A stretch of 40,853 nucleotides of DNA from positions 1 to 40,853 of the forward strand of contig CAMWLY010000010.1 of NCBI GenBank assembly GCA_947175145.1. The letters run 5' to 3'. Below the pieces are notes generated by a model. The model was not told the origin of the DNA. It worked only from the letters and a program-made list of their open reading frames with translations, and did no database searches. The translations under genes and the position numbers were made by a program. Shown piece by piece: positions 1 through 8,721 of this stretch. This stretch comes from an uncultured Muribaculaceae bacterium. GTDB taxonomy: Bacteria; Bacteroidota; Bacteroidia; Bacteroidales; Muribaculaceae. Positions within the stretch are counted from its first letter, which is position 1. The number at the start of each line of letters is the position of its first letter.

Positions 1-11
1 AAACAGAAATA

Positions 12-305
12 ATGGATAATATACAATCACTCGACCAACTGAAAAACAAATATTACGGAGAAATCGGCACTCCCGAACGTGATAGTTTGGAAAACGAACT
101 TGCAGCTCTCCGCATATGTTATAAAATCAAGATTGCACGCGAAAGACTTAATCTCACACAGGAGCAGTTAGCAGAACGTGTGGATAAAAAACGCCCATTC
201 ATTTCTAAGATAGAAAACGACGGCGAGAATATCACTCTCCGCACCCTATTTGACATTGTAGAGCGAGGATTAGGGGGCCATCTGAGAATCAGTTTTGATT
301 TTTAG
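12..305 (+). CDS. XRE-family HTH protein, HigA-like antitoxin (putative toxin partner would lie left of the window)
   Basis: 97-aa ORF with helix-turn-helix segment ...IKIARERLNLTQEQLAERVDKKRPFISKIENDGENITLRTLFDIVERGLG... Confidence 0.75.
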   Translation: MDNIQSLDQLKNKYYGEIGTPERDSLENELAALRICYKIKIARERLNLTQEQLAERVDKKRPFISKIENDGENITLRTLFDIVERGLGGHLRISFDF

Positions 306-331
306 ACCCTGCGCCCTGATATTGAATAATT

Positions 332-361
332 CCCCAAAAGTTATGTGTCTAACTTTTGGGG
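332..361. terminator. Perfect 12-bp stem hairpin between convergent genes (candidate bidirectional terminator)
   Basis: CCCCAAAAGTTA-tgtgtc-TAACTTTTGGGG; lies between the + strand HTH gene and the 3' end of the - strand R-M operon. Confidence 0.65.
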
Positions 362-489
362 TTATCAATGTATTGGTCGAGGTCGGTATCATCAAAGAGA
401 CCCGACAACTCGCCGGTGTTCTCGTTATAGTCGAAGTCCACCCAGCCATCATGCACAGGGTCTCCATTGTAGGTGTCTAAATCGTCCAT
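349..489 (-). CDS. 46-aa hyperacidic small protein at the 3' end of the R-M operon
   Basis: Manual translation: MDDLDTYNGDPVHDGWVDFDYNENTGELSGLFDDTDLDQYIDNPKS*. ATG is 2 nt after the Res stop (TAG TT ATG); 14 D/E versus 1 K. Confidence 0.6.
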   Translation of the reverse strand: MDDLDTYNGDPVHDGWVDFDYNENTGELSGLFDDTDLDQYIDNPKS

Positions 490-491
490 AA

Positions 492-3194
492 CTATATAAG
501 TTTTGCTTGTTGTAGAATGTAGTTAAAGGAATAACTGCGATCTGCGAGGGTGTGCGGGATAATAATATATTTCCAGGGTTTGCCGCCGTTTTGAGCGGTG
601 AATTCCGTTGCTCTACGGCAAAACTCACGAGCGGCTTCTGCCTTGGCTTGCACTTCTTCCGAATTTACTTGGTCTTCTCGTTTTGTTTCGCACATATAGA
701 TAGCGTCAGCGGTCTCCACTATGAAATCCGTCTCATATTTCTTTGCGCCATTTTTCCAGTAGATATTCAACTGATCCGGAACAGGACGAATCCATTTGAG
801 GACTTCATTATTGGTTTCGAGAATAAAAGAGAAGTCAAGCTCGGTCGAACTGTCAAAACGATATTTTGTGTAATAGGATTTTTTGAAGCCTACATATACA
901 TATTTCTTAACTTCTGATTTGGAAGTTGGAGCAGGTTCGTGAAAATCACGATACCCCCAGTCATTAACAATGACATGTTGGTCGAGAATTTTAGAGAACG
1001 GAAGCACTTTGTTAATTTTGAACTCTCCCGGAATTATGCGGTAGTGTTCTTTCATCTGCTTATAGATGTTGTCCGAAATGCTTTGCTTGTAAGCGTGAAC
1101 CCTCTCGTTCAAATCATCATCTGAAATACCGGGAGCATTTCTACGGATAGCGTCAATAGCTTGTCCGACAAGTTTATAAAGCAGGTCGGAAATTTCGTCA
1201 TAATCTATATCATCAAAGTCAATCAGCGAGACAATAAGTTGTTCTATGGCGGGTCGTTTTGAACTTCCGGATTTACCGGCAATAACCTCGAACTCTGTTG
1301 AATCATGCAGACCCTGACGGATAAGTTCACGATGTAATTCATCAAGATTATACCCGGTTGTGGTGTCAAGGTCGAAGTCCTCAAAAATGGCTTTGACATT
1401 CTGCTGTTCAACAACGATGCGTGGTATCTCGATAACATTATTTTTGTAGTCCTCAACTACAATATTTATAATCTCGTCGACCTGAGCAATTTGTTCGGCA
1501 GCATCTTGTTCAGCAAATAGGGAGTCTTTAATGCTCTCCTTAATTGTTTCAATAGCCTTTTCGCGCAACTTTTGTTTTACCTCTTTCTTTTGGAGGTCTC
1601 CAAAAGAAGCAACACCCTCGGAGGCAATGTTTGAAATGGCTGTCTCTACAGCCTTGCCAACCTGTGTAACATACGCTTTCGATTTCTCGGTTATTTCACC
1701 CTTGACTTTTTCAATTTGCTTCTGAATCTTCTGCTCGGTAGAGGTCGGAGTAGTTTCCACACGACCTCCCTTATCGCGCTCATCGGCTTCGTCAAGTTCG
1801 ATAAACGAAACACGTTTGAGCAGTGAATTGCCCTTGTTTGCTTCGTCGATAACTTTCTGGAATTTGTCGTGAGCAATTACAGTTAGGGTATCAACATCCT
1901 TATTCCCGGTGCGCTGTCCTCCGTATGGCAAGCGCAGACCGCGTCCGATAGTTTGCTCAATGAGGATAGCCGCATTGGAGGCGCGTAGTGGAATAATCGT
2001 ATAAAGATTATTCACGTCCCAACCCTCTTTGAGCATATTGACGTGGACTACAATTTCTATCTTATTATCGGGTGATTCGAGAGCCACAAACTGACGCTCG
2101 ATGTCTTCGTCCTTTTTAGATGTGCTGTCAATGCGTAGAACCTTTCCTTTGTACGCTCCGTGATAAATGCGATCGCTCTGCAATAAATCTTCTATCTCTT
2201 TTGCATGATTGATGTCGCGGCAAGCAACGAGTATAAAAGGTTTGACTACTGGCAATCCGTTCTGCTTGGCATACATCTCAATAGCAAGCCTGGTCCGCTC
2301 ATGTACTGTAATTCCATCTTCAAGTTTGATAATTTCAATTTCCTCGGGAGTGAAATTATCTTTGTTGAAATTACGGGCTTTTGCAATCGCCGGATTTTTG
2401 ACATATAATCCATTGTCGAGTGCTTCGGCGAGATTATATTCAAAAACGATATTCTTAAAGGCTTTCCCTTTTTCATCGAAAGGTGTAGCAGTCATCTCAA
2501 AACCAAGAATAGGACGAAGCTCATTGATCGCTTTTTTTGAAGCGTCTCCGTGATAGCGGTGTGCTTCGTCCATCAAGATTACAAGGTCAGGAAGCGATGC
2601 GAGATAATCAAAGTATGATTGACCGAGATATTCAGACAGTCGACGCATACGCGGTAACCCTTTTTTACTCTCTTTACTATCCTTGTTGAACTTCGAGATG
2701 TTGAAGATATTGATTTCAAGGTCTGAGAAAAGAGAGCCTGTGCGTTCCTGATAGTTCTCGCCAGTAACGATTCTTGGTGGCCTTCCGACAAATTCACTGA
2801 TACCCTTGAACACATATTTTGAATATGACTCATCGCCGAAGTCTTTTATCAACTTCTCGTAAAGAGTAAGATTGGGAGCAAGCACAAAAAAGTGCTTGAT
2901 GCCTTTCTTGAGATAAAGGTATGCGATGATTGCACCCATCAGTCGCGTTTTACCGATACCGGTGGCAATAGAAAAAGCAAGCGAAGGGAAATCCCGGTCA
3001 AACCCTTTCACCGTCGGCACAATAGACTTTACCTTTGCAAGTTCAGCTGTGATAAACATTTCAAGCATATCCGGGTCAGTCGGCGGTTTTTGCAAGGAAA
3101 GCTTATCGGTCAGTTGAGCGGTAAGCTCTAACGCTTTCGCAAGAGGCTTGCGAAGCGATAGACGCTGACGTATGTAGTTAGCTTGTGAGTCCAT
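492..3194 (-). CDS. Type III restriction endonuclease subunit Res (DEAD/DEAH helicase plus PD-(D/E)XK nuclease)
   Basis: Walker A-like TGIGKTRL, MDEAHRY, helicase C-like QTIGRGLRLP, C-terminal YETDFIV...YMCETKRED (D..ExK); TGATG overlap with mod. Confidence 0.88.
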   Translation of the reverse strand: MDSQANYIRQRLSLRKPLAKALELTAQLTDKLSLQKPPTDPDMLEMFITAELAKVKSIVPTVKGFDRDFPSLAFSIATGIGKTRLMGAIIAYLYLKKGIKHFFVLAPNLTLYEKLIKDFGDESYSKYVFKGISEFVGRPPRIVTGENYQERTGSLFSDLEINIFNISKFNKDSKESKKGLPRMRRLSEYLGQSYFDYLASLPDLVILMDEAHRYHGDASKKAINELRPILGFEMTATPFDEKGKAFKNIVFEYNLAEALDNGLYVKNPAIAKARNFNKDNFTPEEIEIIKLEDGITVHERTRLAIEMYAKQNGLPVVKPFILVACRDINHAKEIEDLLQSDRIYHGAYKGKVLRIDSTSKKDEDIERQFVALESPDNKIEIVVHVNMLKEGWDVNNLYTIIPLRASNAAILIEQTIGRGLRLPYGGQRTGNKDVDTLTVIAHDKFQKVIDEANKGNSLLKRVSFIELDEADERDKGGRVETTPTSTEQKIQKQIEKVKGEITEKSKAYVTQVGKAVETAISNIASEGVASFGDLQKKEVKQKLREKAIETIKESIKDSLFAEQDAAEQIAQVDEIINIVVEDYKNNVIEIPRIVVEQQNVKAIFEDFDLDTTTGYNLDELHRELIRQGLHDSTEFEVIAGKSGSSKRPAIEQLIVSLIDFDDIDYDEISDLLYKLVGQAIDAIRRNAPGISDDDLNERVHAYKQSISDNIYKQMKEHYRIIPGEFKINKVLPFSKILDQHVIVNDWGYRDFHEPAPTSKSEVKKYVYVGFKKSYYTKYRFDSSTELDFSFILETNNEVLKWIRPVPDQLNIYWKNGAKKYETDFIVETADAIYMCETKREDQVNSEEVQAKAEAAREFCRRATEFTAQNGGKPWKYIIIPHTLADRSYSFNYILQQAKLI

Positions 3195-4807
3195 CAGTCA
3201 AAAAGATTTGGTTCGTTTTGTGATGTTTTTTCATCATGAAGATACTCTCCGTATGGGTCAAGATCTTCCCGTTCCTCATATTCAATATCGGGAACCGACA
3301 CGATATTGAGAGAATAATCGTCGCGGGCGAACTCGCAGGTGTCGAGAAGAACTTTGGGGATTTTCTTAATGGTGATGTTTGAGTACTTGTTACGGCACTC
3401 AGGCTGGAATTTGGTGCAGCATATAAGCAATGATTCATCTTCGCCCAACTGATCGTGAATGGTTTCGAGCATTTCAGCGGTAATGAGTTGGGTGGTAGTG
3501 AAGATAAAGTCATGCTCAGAACTGCTACCTTGCTTCCAATAAACTTCCGTGTCCGGAGAATAGGTAAAGCCCTGATGCTTTGCCATAGCAGCGGCAAGCA
3601 TATCGGCATTGTAATCCTTGTTGATTACAAGGTTACCATACTTATCCTTATTGAGAAGACTCGGCGCAAGTTCGTAGAACTTAAATCCTCCTCCGCCTTG
3701 CCAATTCAAAGGAATAGTCATTCCGCTTTTATCGGTTCCAGTTATAACATTTTTCAATCTCGGCGAACAATGTGAAAATGCATGATCCCCAAGCTCAACT
3801 CCAATCCAACGACGTCCCATTTTATGGGCAACAGCAGCAGTTGTTCCACTTCCGAGGAAACTGTCTAAAACTAAGTCGCCAGGTTTAGTAAATAAGGATA
3901 GTACACGGAATAGTAAGGCCTCTGGCTTCTTGGACGTTGGAAAGTCAACACCGCCCTCATTTTGAGTGTTTTGAAAATCGATATCTTCCCAAAAATCACA
4001 AAGAAGCATTCCAAGGTCTTCCGTAATATCTCGGTTCCAAACCACGGTTTGAATACCGGCACTTAATAATGATATTACACGACCATTATAATATAAATCA
4101 TCTTTTGAGCCATCTTTCGAGCGGAAAGAGACTACTTCATTGAAATGTTCTAAAGAATATTTTCTAGCATCCTCATTTTTATGTGACTGTGTTGTGCAGA
4201 TTTGATTTCGATGACAAAGATAAAATTCTTTGAATTTTTTATCTCGAATATTTATATCTTTTAATGTGGATTTCGGAGGAAGTATTCCTTTTTCAATCAG
4301 AACATCCAATAAATTAATGAGAATTTTTGTCCCATTTTTCTCTGTTATAAAATAGGAATAATGGGTATCGTATGTTTCTCTTTTAACATATTGAGGAAAA
4401 ATTTCAAGTTTATCGGACTTTTTATACACCAACATTAAGTCTTTTTGCTTGATAATTTTTTTCCCTCGATGTGCAGTCTTGACTCCACTTGGAGTAGAAG
4501 AGCGAATAGCAACAGAGGCAATGAAATTAGATCGTCCAAAAATCTCATCACAAATTACTTTGGCATAATGCACTTCGCCATCGTCGAGGTGCATACATAG
4601 TACACCGTCATCGCTTAATAATTTATAAAGAGATTGAAGACGGTAATACATTAAGTTGAGCCATATAGAATGCTCTAAATTATCATCGTAATGCTCGAAA
4701 GCGTTACCGGTATTGTATGGAGGGTCTATGTAGATACACTTAACTGCGCCTGAAAAGTTTTCTTCGAGAGCGCGAAGAGCGAGAAGATTGTCGCCGTGAA
4801 TGAGCAT
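3194..4807 (-). CDS. Type III (beta-class) adenine DNA methyltransferase Mod, main reading frame as sequenced
   Basis: GDNLLALRAL, IDPPYNTG (motif IV) followed later by DSFLGSGTTAAVAHKMGRRWIGVEL (motif I); motif order is beta-class. The N-terminal 54 codons are out of frame upstream (next feature). Confidence 0.88.
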   Translation of the reverse strand: MLIHGDNLLALRALEENFSGAVKCIYIDPPYNTGNAFEHYDDNLEHSIWLNLMYYRLQSLYKLLSDDGVLCMHLDDGEVHYAKVICDEIFGRSNFIASVAIRSSTPSGVKTAHRGKKIIKQKDLMLVYKKSDKLEIFPQYVKRETYDTHYSYFITEKNGTKILINLLDVLIEKGILPPKSTLKDINIRDKKFKEFYLCHRNQICTTQSHKNEDARKYSLEHFNEVVSFRSKDGSKDDLYYNGRVISLLSAGIQTVVWNRDITEDLGMLLCDFWEDIDFQNTQNEGGVDFPTSKKPEALLFRVLSLFTKPGDLVLDSFLGSGTTAAVAHKMGRRWIGVELGDHAFSHCSPRLKNVITGTDKSGMTIPLNWQGGGGFKFYELAPSLLNKDKYGNLVINKDYNADMLAAAMAKHQGFTYSPDTEVYWKQGSSSEHDFIFTTTQLITAEMLETIHDQLGEDESLLICCTKFQPECRNKYSNITIKKIPKVLLDTCEFARDDYSLNIVSVPDIEYEEREDLDPYGEYLHDEKTSQNEPNLFD

Positions 4808-4848
4808 ATTACCCGGCCACGGTTTGCCATTAGGGAGTATTCCGACTT

Positions 4849-4968
4849 CTACCCCCCCGCATAACTAAATTGTTGATTCTCAATAAGTAAACGTGGTTCA
4901 ACAGCAAAAGTCTCCTCTTCCTTGCCAATCCACGTCAGCTCCAGTTTATTTATCTTGTTATGTGCCAT
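4849..4968 (-). pseudogene. Out-of-frame 5' portion of mod, separated from the main frame by a G7 tract
   Basis: Translation MAHNKINKLELTWIGKEEETFAVEPRLLIENQQFSYAGG* (stop TAG at 4849-4851). With one added G it continues ...YAGGVEVGILPNGKPWPGN-MLIHGDNLLALRAL... Confidence 0.85.
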
Positions 4969-4969
4969 T

Positions 4970-5800
4970 TTACTTTTTCTTTTTAGGAAGGATTTTCTTT
5001 TCGTCTGCTTTCAGGCGTCGTTCCACTTTCTTGACATCTTCTGCAGGAGGGAGTGCTTCAGGGCGGATATCTCGGTCAAGCAGCATATTGCGAACGGCAG
5101 AATTATTGTCAATGTGTTCGCGTTCAATGTTGCCTTGTCCTCTAAGATCTTTCTGCAGTACGTTTACGGAGGTCATTTCTGCAGCAAAGTCTTTTGCTTT
5201 GATAGCTAAAGTGGATAGGAAGTCGGCAAGAGGTCTTTTCTCCGGCGCACCTACTCTTCGTTTCATCATGGAAGTATTAAGGCCGAAAAGTGCCTGATCT
5301 CCTTTAGCACGTATTACAGCAAACCCTTTATTATCTACCCCTCTTTCATAAAGTACCCCTGAAAGATGATGTTCTGTTTCGGCAAGTTTAGCACGAGCCT
5401 GTACCCTCTCGTAATCAAGGAGTCGTTGATGCACAAGTTCGGCACGACGAGTTTGCACGGCGAAATAGTTTTGTGCAAATGCAATCTCCGGTTTGCGAGG
5501 GTCACCATTTTGAGCCACAAGATAGCACGCATAGCGTGTAAGCATTACGTCATCAATCTGACGCTGAGCGCCTTTGGCGAGGTTTATCATTTTCCCGGCG
5601 TCGGCAAAATGATCGGAGATTTTTTCCCCTGCGTTTTCACAAGATTCCTTAGCCCGCGCGAGAACATCCTTAAATCTTTCCCATTTAGCATATCCTAATA
5701 AAGGATAGAGTTCGCGGGCGCTCCAACATTCCAGTCCTTCATATTCTATGGCGATAGATTCAAAGCTATTAAATAGTTTATTTATTTCTTCGGCTTTCAT
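4970..5800 (-). CDS. DinD-like protein (DNA damage-inducible protein D family)
   Basis: [47 protein letters not shown]...[38 protein letters not shown]...; the track start at 5821 is a TTG, ATG at 5800 seems more likely. Stop is 1 nt from the mod ATG at 4968. Confidence 0.85.
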
Positions 5801-5805
5801 AATAG

Positions 5806-8721
5806 TTAAATTATCCTCCAATGAAAGGTTATTAACTTGGTTTGCTCAATCTTTTGGGCGAGCATGGCTTCTACTTTTGAGAGCAGTTCTTCTTTCTGAG
5901 AATCCACATCATCCTGTGCCTGATAAAGATTGAGGCGTTTTTTGCTACGTTCCTTTTCAAGGTCTTTGATAAGACGTTGCAGACGTACTTTTTCGTCAAG
6001 GCGCGAAGTCTTTTTGCTCTCGCTTTTGCGGAGCTTGATTTCAGCGTCAAGGTCGCGCAATTCTTTTTCCAACCCGGCTTTCACATCGTCAGCCCAGTTG
6101 TCGAGTTTTTCCATTTCTTCCTCGAAGAAAGTATTATTGCGCTCGGCATTAGCGGCTGTAATCTCCGCACGTTGGGCGGTGATTGCATCAGCGAGTGCAA
6201 CTGCAACGGTTTGGGATAGTTCCGCATTCAGCGGATCTTCCGAACCGGGAAGTCGTAGCATGTACTCGGCAATGTCGGAAGGAATGGGTTCTCCTTTAGC
6301 AGTAATACAAGCGTGGAGAAGAATATCCTCTTTCTCGAACGAGTCTATAGTAAGTTGCTCGACAGTGAGCCAACCTGAATGACCGACAAGCTGCTTGATG
6401 AAAGCAACGTTGAGCGGTGAGTTACTGTAATCGAGTGTAACTTCGGAGACAGGAACAGGCGCAGCTTTAAGACCGGTGAGCATATATTGAGCGAGCGGAT
6501 CGCCAATGCGGTAAGGTCGTACACCATCTGCTAATTTAGCGGTACGCCTATTCTCGGAGCTTACCATCATATATTCGCCGGGGAAACGACGATACCAGCT
6601 CACGGCTCCGTTATCCACAAACGGATGGACGATAAACGAATGGTCTGTATCGTTGAAATCGGCATAGTCAGCGAAATAGTTTCGCGTAAGTTGCCAAAGC
6701 GTTTGCTCAAATTGATTGAGATTATCGCGGGTTTCGGCAAGGTCGCTCCGAAGTTTCTGCTTAACGGATTCATCGAAGTTCTCTAAAAGAGTGGTACGGG
6801 CTTTAAGCATCTTGTCTGAAATCTGCTCTTGCAGTTCCTCTTGGAGGGCGTCGAAAGCCTCTTTAATCTCTTTTGGCGAGCGGCAAAGTTGATAAATCTG
6901 CGCTATGCGCTTTTCAAAATCAACGCCATTGCCGATTGCCCCGAGAACTTCATCGGAGGCTCCGAAAACTCCGTTGAAAAGCTGAAACTTTTGGTCGAGC
7001 AATTCATAGACGCGGATATCGGCTGCATTTGCTTTATTGAGGAAGTTGATAACCACTACATCGAAATTCTGACCGTAGCGGTGGCAACGACCAATGCGCT
7101 GCTCGATGCGCTGTGGATTCCACGGCATATCATAGTTGACCACAAGCGAGCAGAACTGAAGATTGATACCTTCGGCAGCAGCCTCGGTAGCAATCATAAT
7201 GGTAGCTTCATCGCGGAAGTAGTCAACGAGAGCAGCGCGTTTATCGGCGGTTGCCGGGCCTGTGATTTTTGATGTACCCTTATGCTTTTCTTTCCAAGCC
7301 TTGTAAATGGCTGTGGATTGCTTGTCGGAATTAGAACCATTGAAAAGTACCACTTTCCCCTTGTAGCCTCTCTTTTCGAGCAAGTCGAAAATGAAATCTT
7401 GAGTACGGCGCGATTCAGTAAAGATAAGAGCCTTTTTGGGCGCACCGAGTTCTTCAAGTTGAGCAAATCCCTGATTTAAGCCTTCAAAAAGCTGTTCAGC
7501 TTTTGAGTTGCGTTTAATTTTGAAGGCGACGTCGCGGAATTTTTCAAGGTCTTTAATTTCTGCTTCCACTCGCTCGATGTCTTCGGGCGAGAGCATTTCT
7601 TCTTCGTCCGGCTCATCCTCGTCTTCTTCATCATCAAGCCATTCTTCGGTTTCGCTCTCGTAGTCCTCATAGTCATACTTGAAAAGTTCATCATCGGAAT
7701 GCTCAACGCCCTGACGTTTGAGCTTAGTCTCCAACTTTTCAATTAGTGCGCAGAGAGTCCCGTATATAGCGTGGGTTGAAGATGCAAGAAGTTTGCGGAG
7801 GATTAGCGTCATAAGCTGACGCTGACTGTTAGGGAGCGCATAAAGGCGTGGACGTTGCAGATACTCCGAAACAAGGTCGTAAAGTTCCTGTTCTTGTTTG
7901 GTCGGGAAAAACTCTTGCAGTATAGCGATACGCTTTGTGTATCGTACATATTCCAATACCTGTCGGCGAAGTGTACGCTTACATAACGGAGCAAGACGGC
8001 GACGCAGGTTGGTATAATCGGCTTCGTCAAGATTCCGGTTATACTGCATCTTGAAACTTTTGATGTCTCCAAACGCATAATCATCTATTATTGTAGTCAG
8101 ACCGTAAAGTTCAAGAATAGAGTTTTGGAGCGGAGTTGCTGTAAGGAGAATTTTCTTCCTATCCGCAAGCGCATTTTTTATAGTGTTGGAGATTTTGTTG
8201 GTAGGCTTATAGACATTGCGTAGACGGTGAGCCTCATCGATTACCACCAAATCCCAATTTGTTTGCTTTAGATATGGAGCCTTTGTTTTTGCGAATTGAT
8301 ATGAGCAAATGACAATTTCTTCGCAGTTGAATGGGTTAAGCTTCCCGGCCTCAATGAAGCGGTTAAAAGTCTTTGCTTCGAGAATACGAGACGGCAGAAA
8401 GAACTTCTCTTGAAGTTCAGCTGCCCACTGTTTGCGGAGGTTAGCCGGAGCGATGATCAGCAGGTGGCGGCGATGTTCTGCCCAGAACTGAGAAAGAATA
8501 ATCCCTGCTTCAATAGTCTTGCCAAGTCCTACCTCGTCGGCGAGTATTGCACCCTTAGAAAGCGGAGACTTGAACGCAAAAAGAGCTGCATCTATCTGAT
8601 GCGGAGTTAAATCAACCTGCGCGTCTTGTAATGAAGCTGTGAGCTTACCGAGACTGTCGGAAGGCAGACTCCGTGTAAGCCAATAGGCAAAATATTTCTG
8701 TTGCGCTGCTGTCAGCTTCAT
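5806..8721 (-). CDS. SNF2-family DEAD/DEAH helicase
   Basis: [43 protein letters not shown], and helicase C segment [33 protein letters not shown]. Confidence 0.9.

Follow-up and report, generated by a model that had tools for sequence, protein, structure and literature searches.

A small acidic open reading frame behind a type III res gene belongs to an undescribed, selected small-protein family of Muribaculaceae

We analyzed a stretch of 40,853 nucleotides (the window) on contig CAMWLY010000010.1 of an uncultured Muribaculaceae bacterium (assembly GCA_947175145.1). Positions 349 to 8721 hold a minus-strand operon, which begins with a gene for a SNF2-type helicase whose top PADLOC match is DrmD (5806–8721, Pfam and PADLOC). 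In the same orientation follow a Bro-N domain protein that is the PADLOC candidate PDC-S13 (4970–5821, Pfam and PADLOC), the type III modification methyltransferase Mod of 537 aa (3194–4807; Pfam N6_N4_Mtase, 4.5e-41; PADLOC MTase_III, 2e-143), the type III restriction subunit Res of 900 aa (492–3194; Pfam ResIII, 7e-21; PADLOC REase_III, 3e-157) and, last, a small acidic ORF (349–489). Convergent with them, a plus-strand gene (12–305) encodes a helix-turn-helix regulator of 97 aa.

The minus-strand translation of 489–349 gave MDDLDTYNGDPVHDGWVDFDYNENTGELSGLFDDTDLDQYIDNPKS followed by a stop, that is, 46 codons. The product contains 12 Asp, 2 Glu and 1 Lys, and its net charge of −13 over 46 aa makes it the most acidic among the 144 ORFs of 40–60 aa in the window. 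The ATG lies 2 nt past the TAG of the 900-aa res gene, and the stop codon (351–349) falls within a hairpin at 332–361. The first-pass annotation had described a hyperacidic 46-aa ORF of this composition, with its start 2 nt behind the res stop and its end in the terminator hairpin; our translation and coordinates agree with it. The description of an unannotated, strongly acidic protein within a restriction-modification (R-M) operon, placed for translational coupling to res, likewise holds. The strand of the ORF was absent from that description and is supplied here.

The hairpin is formed by a 30-bp palindrome, CCCCAAAAGTTATGTGTCTAACTTTTGGGG (332–361, hairpin fold z = −4.7), which is the core of a widespread intergenic palindromic element of Bacteroidales and occurs at 94–100% identity in the genomes of about two dozen relatives. 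The copies that we read are about 46 bp long, lie in intergenic DNA and are usually flanked by GAACTGCA and TGCAGTTC; these flanks are absent around the window palindrome. A role of the ~46-bp element as bidirectional terminator or mobile palindrome is possible. An insertion-sequence end was considered because in some genomes the palindrome is found close to the ends of contigs, and was rejected because the copies read are intergenic palindromes with no recognised transposase in the stretch fetched. The homology of the helix-turn-helix gene with relatives stops at about 301–309, before the palindrome, and the window junction was absent from the relatives searched.

To place the small ORF, we searched its relatives and found that it is a real gene of an undescribed, Muribaculaceae-centred small-protein family under purifying selection. 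A tblastn search of 200 relatives returned matches down to E 4e-21 with conserved frames, and a profile search recovered about 110 members in 83 of 397 Muribaculaceae genomes, covering 17 of 30 genera. Across 84,980 species genomes, a scan found 65 loci, nearly all in records of Muribaculaceae or other gut Bacteroidales; the remainder lie in a few MAGs that are assigned to Bacilli or Clostridia and may be misbinned contigs. Canonical members have 49–51 aa and end in I.NLNDWD. The family consensus is MxxxDDLDxYNGDxVHDMWVDFDYxENTGELPxLFDExDxDxFIDNLNDWD, with a mean net charge of −0.33 per residue. No match to the family below E 0.02 was found in Pfam, NCBIfam, PHROGs or PADLOC, the top match of a PDB sequence search was an unrelated ubiquitin ligase (E 0.86), and no Rfam match to a structured RNA was found in window positions 1–1500.

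The Ka/Ks comparison suggested by the first-pass annotation indicated purifying selection: the median dN/dS of the family is about 0.17, with codon position 3 the most variable, and the window copy compared with its nearest relatives gave 0.04–0.16 over 40 shared codons. Loss of the reading frame in relatives had been named as a possible refutation. The frame is conserved, and it is the only stop-free one. In 22 full-length, ungapped members of 51 aa, it contains no stops and has a pN/pS of 0.28, and the other five frames contain 1.5–6.5 stops per copy with pN/pS of 0.45–2.2. A chance or non-coding ORF is ruled out by this six-frame test. The idea of a remnant of a larger gene also fails, since the relatives are stand-alone ORFs of 49–51 aa with conserved start and stop, of which the window ORF is a shortened copy.

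This shortening affects both ends. Compared with its nearest relatives, the window copy lacks 9 nt (3 codons) near the start, reading MDD--LDTY instead of MDEYDDLDTY. It leaves the family sequence after ...YIDN, at the start of the palindrome, which supplies the last residues PKS and the stop, and the conserved NLNDWD is absent. Judged from its sequence, the copy lacking this tail is probably impaired, with poor or no function. Its low dN/dS over the 40 shared codons indicates that it was under selection until recently.

We investigated the genes beside the family members. The 58 copies with a same-strand upstream gene follow members of 39 unrelated gene clusters. In subfamily A, to which the window type belongs, 18 of 41 copies lie −4 to +6 nt from the upstream stop, 17 of 41 are equally close to the downstream ATG, and 28 of 41 overlap or lie within 6 nt on the upstream or the downstream side. 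The background for adjacent gene pairs is about 25% on one side (p = 0.006 and 0.015 for subfamily A). Because copies overlap or abut the preceding or the following gene, their position would allow translation by termination-reinitiation along with that gene. Nuclease, R-M and helicase genes are frequent among the neighbours with recognised domains, which include HsdR, two kinds of type III Res, N6/N4 methylase, HNH, GIY-YIG (T5orf172), DUF4268 (PDC-S11), REase-ARP, PIN, UvrD-type helicase and KAP NTPase. Many other neighbours have no recognised domain, and many are not DNA-binding, such as SIMPL, Sel1, signal-peptide and membrane proteins. The abundance of nuclease neighbours may only reflect life in defence islands.

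Subfamily B (49 aa), together with Cys-rich proteins that have only the family's tail, occurs in 23 loci 0–350 nt behind a gene of HU type, and in most subfamily B loci HU and the ORF are separated by another small gene. Subfamily B copies are carried, for example, by the cultured strains Muribaculum caecicola NM86_A22 and Paramuribaculum intestinale DSM 100749. With accessory and core-type HU genes divided by identity only, an NLNDWD-tailed gene was found downstream of 9 of 13 accessory paralogues compared with 0 of 17 core-type genes. At these loci, the genes between HU and the ORF and those after the ORF are exchanged in combination. The small Cys-rich proteins (CxCxCHC, eight loci) end in FDESDIDRIIANLNDWD or in a DNLNDWD tail, and most of them lie directly behind an accessory HU gene.

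The family could act as follows. A small acidic protein, largely helical or partly disordered, would be made by translational coupling with the adjoining gene and would bind the DNA-binding surfaces of co-expressed proteins, lowering their DNA binding as DNA mimics do. Its partners would be nucleases and R-M enzymes for subfamily A and accessory HU for subfamily B, and such damping would reduce the harm that the host suffers from defence or nucleoid genes it has newly acquired. This would explain why the gene is of use next to many unrelated genes, yet can be missing next to any one of them. The AlphaFold (AF2) models, with low pLDDT values of 66 and 68, show two helices, and a Foldseek search with one of these low-confidence models matched no solved PDB fold. 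Acidity by itself is not enough for a DNA mimic. The DNA-mimic reading is favoured because, besides the charge, the recurring recognisable neighbours are DNA-acting proteins; doubt is cast on it by the very conserved, docking-like tail and by the many neighbours that have no link to DNA. That a selected, portable family damps co-expressed DNA-binding proteins as an acidic binder is the account that we prefer, at somewhat short of an even chance, and the binding of DNA-binding proteins itself is a tentative proposal. If nucleases or HU are indeed tempered, this would help explain how newly acquired restriction genes and other DNA-acting genes are tolerated.

Known DNA mimics provide a comparison. 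A precedent is given by DMP12, DMP19 and HI1450, three DNA mimics that all bind HU although neither their sequences nor their structures are alike (PMC5722371). Like this family, DMP12 and DMP19 of Neisseria and HI1450 of Haemophilus are small acidic bacterial proteins, and they too have no sequence similarity to each other. Subfamily B adjoins an accessory HU gene, a link that is genetic only. The known proteins have solved structures and measured HU affinities (PMC5722371), whereas the present family is smaller (49–51 aa) and has no confident fold.

The first-pass annotation had pointed instead to Ocr and ArdA. Strong negative charge, aromatic residues and the position of family copies near R-M genes recall these proteins, and the charge was borne out. 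However, kinship was not found by sequence, by profile or in the low-confidence predicted fold. Proteins of the Ocr/ArdA type are carried by phages or plasmids against host restriction, whereas this family sits in the host's own R-M operons. The 50,697 phage and 72,556 plasmid records searched contained no family match, on which ground the reading as a phage anti-restriction gene was rejected, and IMG/VR contained only one contig with a family member, behind a gene resembling one at a bacterial copy. A DNA-mimic mode of action is nevertheless possible, and it would agree with the charge, with the nucleases that recur beside family copies and with the HU genes beside subfamily B.

We then compared the copies and their flanks in pairs. 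About 915 pairs were alignable, and 798 of them have the ORF alone in common. Some ORF-only pairs from different genera (three genera) are 92–94% identical in DNA, with unrelated flanks. In pairs that have one flank in common, homology ends −2 to +17 nt from the ATG in 8 of 8 pairs; on the stop side, it ends 0 to +7 nt from the stop in 15 of 28 pairs and inside the ORF in the rest. Because homology is bounded by the ends of the ORF and identity across genera is so high, the gene moves as a gene-sized module. Such boundaries could result from recombination between copies or from selection for intact genes at the breakpoints.

This pattern could also be explained if the 150-bp ORF persists mainly as homology for the exchange of accessory genes, with crossovers between copies that swap one flank and keep the whole ORF. 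The homology of one-flank-sharing pairs does mostly end at the ORF, and the combinatorial neighbours at the HU loci are of the kind that such exchange would leave. However, a DNA handle has no need of strong protein selection (dN/dS about 0.17), many copies are too diverged for efficient homologous recombination (67–80% identity to the window copy), and gene-precise breakpoints are equally expected if only intact genes survive. As the main reason for the family's persistence we consider this rather unlikely, although the recombination role can coexist with a protein role. If it did predominate, the ORF would offer an explanation of how genes are shuffled in the defence islands of Muribaculaceae.

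The tail itself bears on how the protein would work. NLNDWD is among the most conserved parts of the family, and because synonymous codons vary within it, the conservation is that of the protein and not of the DNA. Conservation this strict points to docking on a specific partner rather than to mimicry by charge in general. Halves of the family are fused to other proteins in a minority of cases; the N-terminal half is found on Zn-ribbon-like and on coiled-coil/membrane proteins (three loci each). Thus NLNDWD might be a docking tag for a host factor (a chaperone, a protease or a nucleoid component), with the acidic body as a spacer, and the family would deliver or mark co-translated proteins. 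The highly conserved tail common to otherwise different Cys-rich proteins, the variable codons behind it and the occurrence of the N-terminal half alone on unrelated proteins are in line with this. However, the candidate tail has no known partner, and it is missing from the window copy and several others. We regard this reading as unlikely.

A DNA-mimic and a tail-docking mechanism may also be covered by one broader proposal, namely an undescribed class of portable ~150-bp acidic micro-genes that are translationally coupled to recently acquired DNA-acting genes (nucleases, R-M enzymes and accessory HU), tame them by either mechanism held in common, and spread between operons and genera with no recombinase of their own. 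In this full form, the proposal is improbable.

The first-pass annotation suggested that such a peptide could restrain Res or the helicase. As a dedicated regulator or inhibitor of the adjoining Res/Mod, the ORF would be well placed by its 2-nt coupling to res. It also speaks for this reading that in three loci the ORF lies 2 nt after the stop of a different type III res family. However, it was found with 0 of 19 orthologues of the window Res that have a readable 3′ end (about 49–93% identical to it); each of these res genes is followed by something else. Because of this, and because the relatives lie behind many unrelated genes, the ORF is not a dedicated Res partner, nor is it conserved beside res as an accessory gene of type III R-M systems would be. 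A specific Res/Mod regulator is very unlikely, and a real protein family that is not specific to res is almost certain.

In the rAID arrays of Bacteroidales, short co-oriented genes are accompanied by a predicted tyrosine recombinase, and the stretches between the genes contain conserved motifs (PMC12247911). These orphan-immunity arrays resemble the present case in bacterial order, in shuffled accessory genes and in the conserved unit between them, but here that unit is a selected protein-coding ORF and not a non-coding intergenic motif, and its recognised neighbours are nuclease-like rather than immunity-like. A cassette boundary like those of rAID arrays or integrons, with a site-specific recombinase to move it, would suit a conserved unit between variable genes, but this reading can hardly be right with a unit that is coding and with no Phage_integrase domain found up to 10 kb from ORF copies on their contigs in 16 genomes, whose contigs are fragmented.

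Like other uncatalogued small-protein families of the gut microbiome, this one is conserved, unannotated and below ORF length cut-offs, but it differs from them in being dispersed, multi-context and modular, with halves on other proteins. It is a new family, and its portable, coupled acidic ORFs are an unusual variant of the small accessory genes of defence islands. An ORF too short for annotation proves to belong to a modular gene family that is under selection and recurs across a major family of gut bacteria. Its function can be tested, because the C-terminal motif is very conserved and the partners (nucleases and accessory HU) recur.

Two observations concern the ends of res operons. At one locus of another genus (L146), an ORF copy (offset 4583, minus strand) is immediately preceded by about 29 nt that look like the final codons of the window res, on a contig with no res gene; to judge by this remnant, a res-ORF junction may have existed more than once. 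A second small acidic family, with an N-terminus MGFW or MKIW, a disordered-looking middle and a tail DDDF or DDDY, is present in 25 of 109 Muribaculaceae genomes. It starts 1–2 nt after the res stop in four orthologous loci, in one of which it is interrupted by a stop, and lies directly after the studied ORF in four other loci. Since it is found both at res ends and after the studied ORF, small acidic genes come to lie at the 3′ end of such operons.
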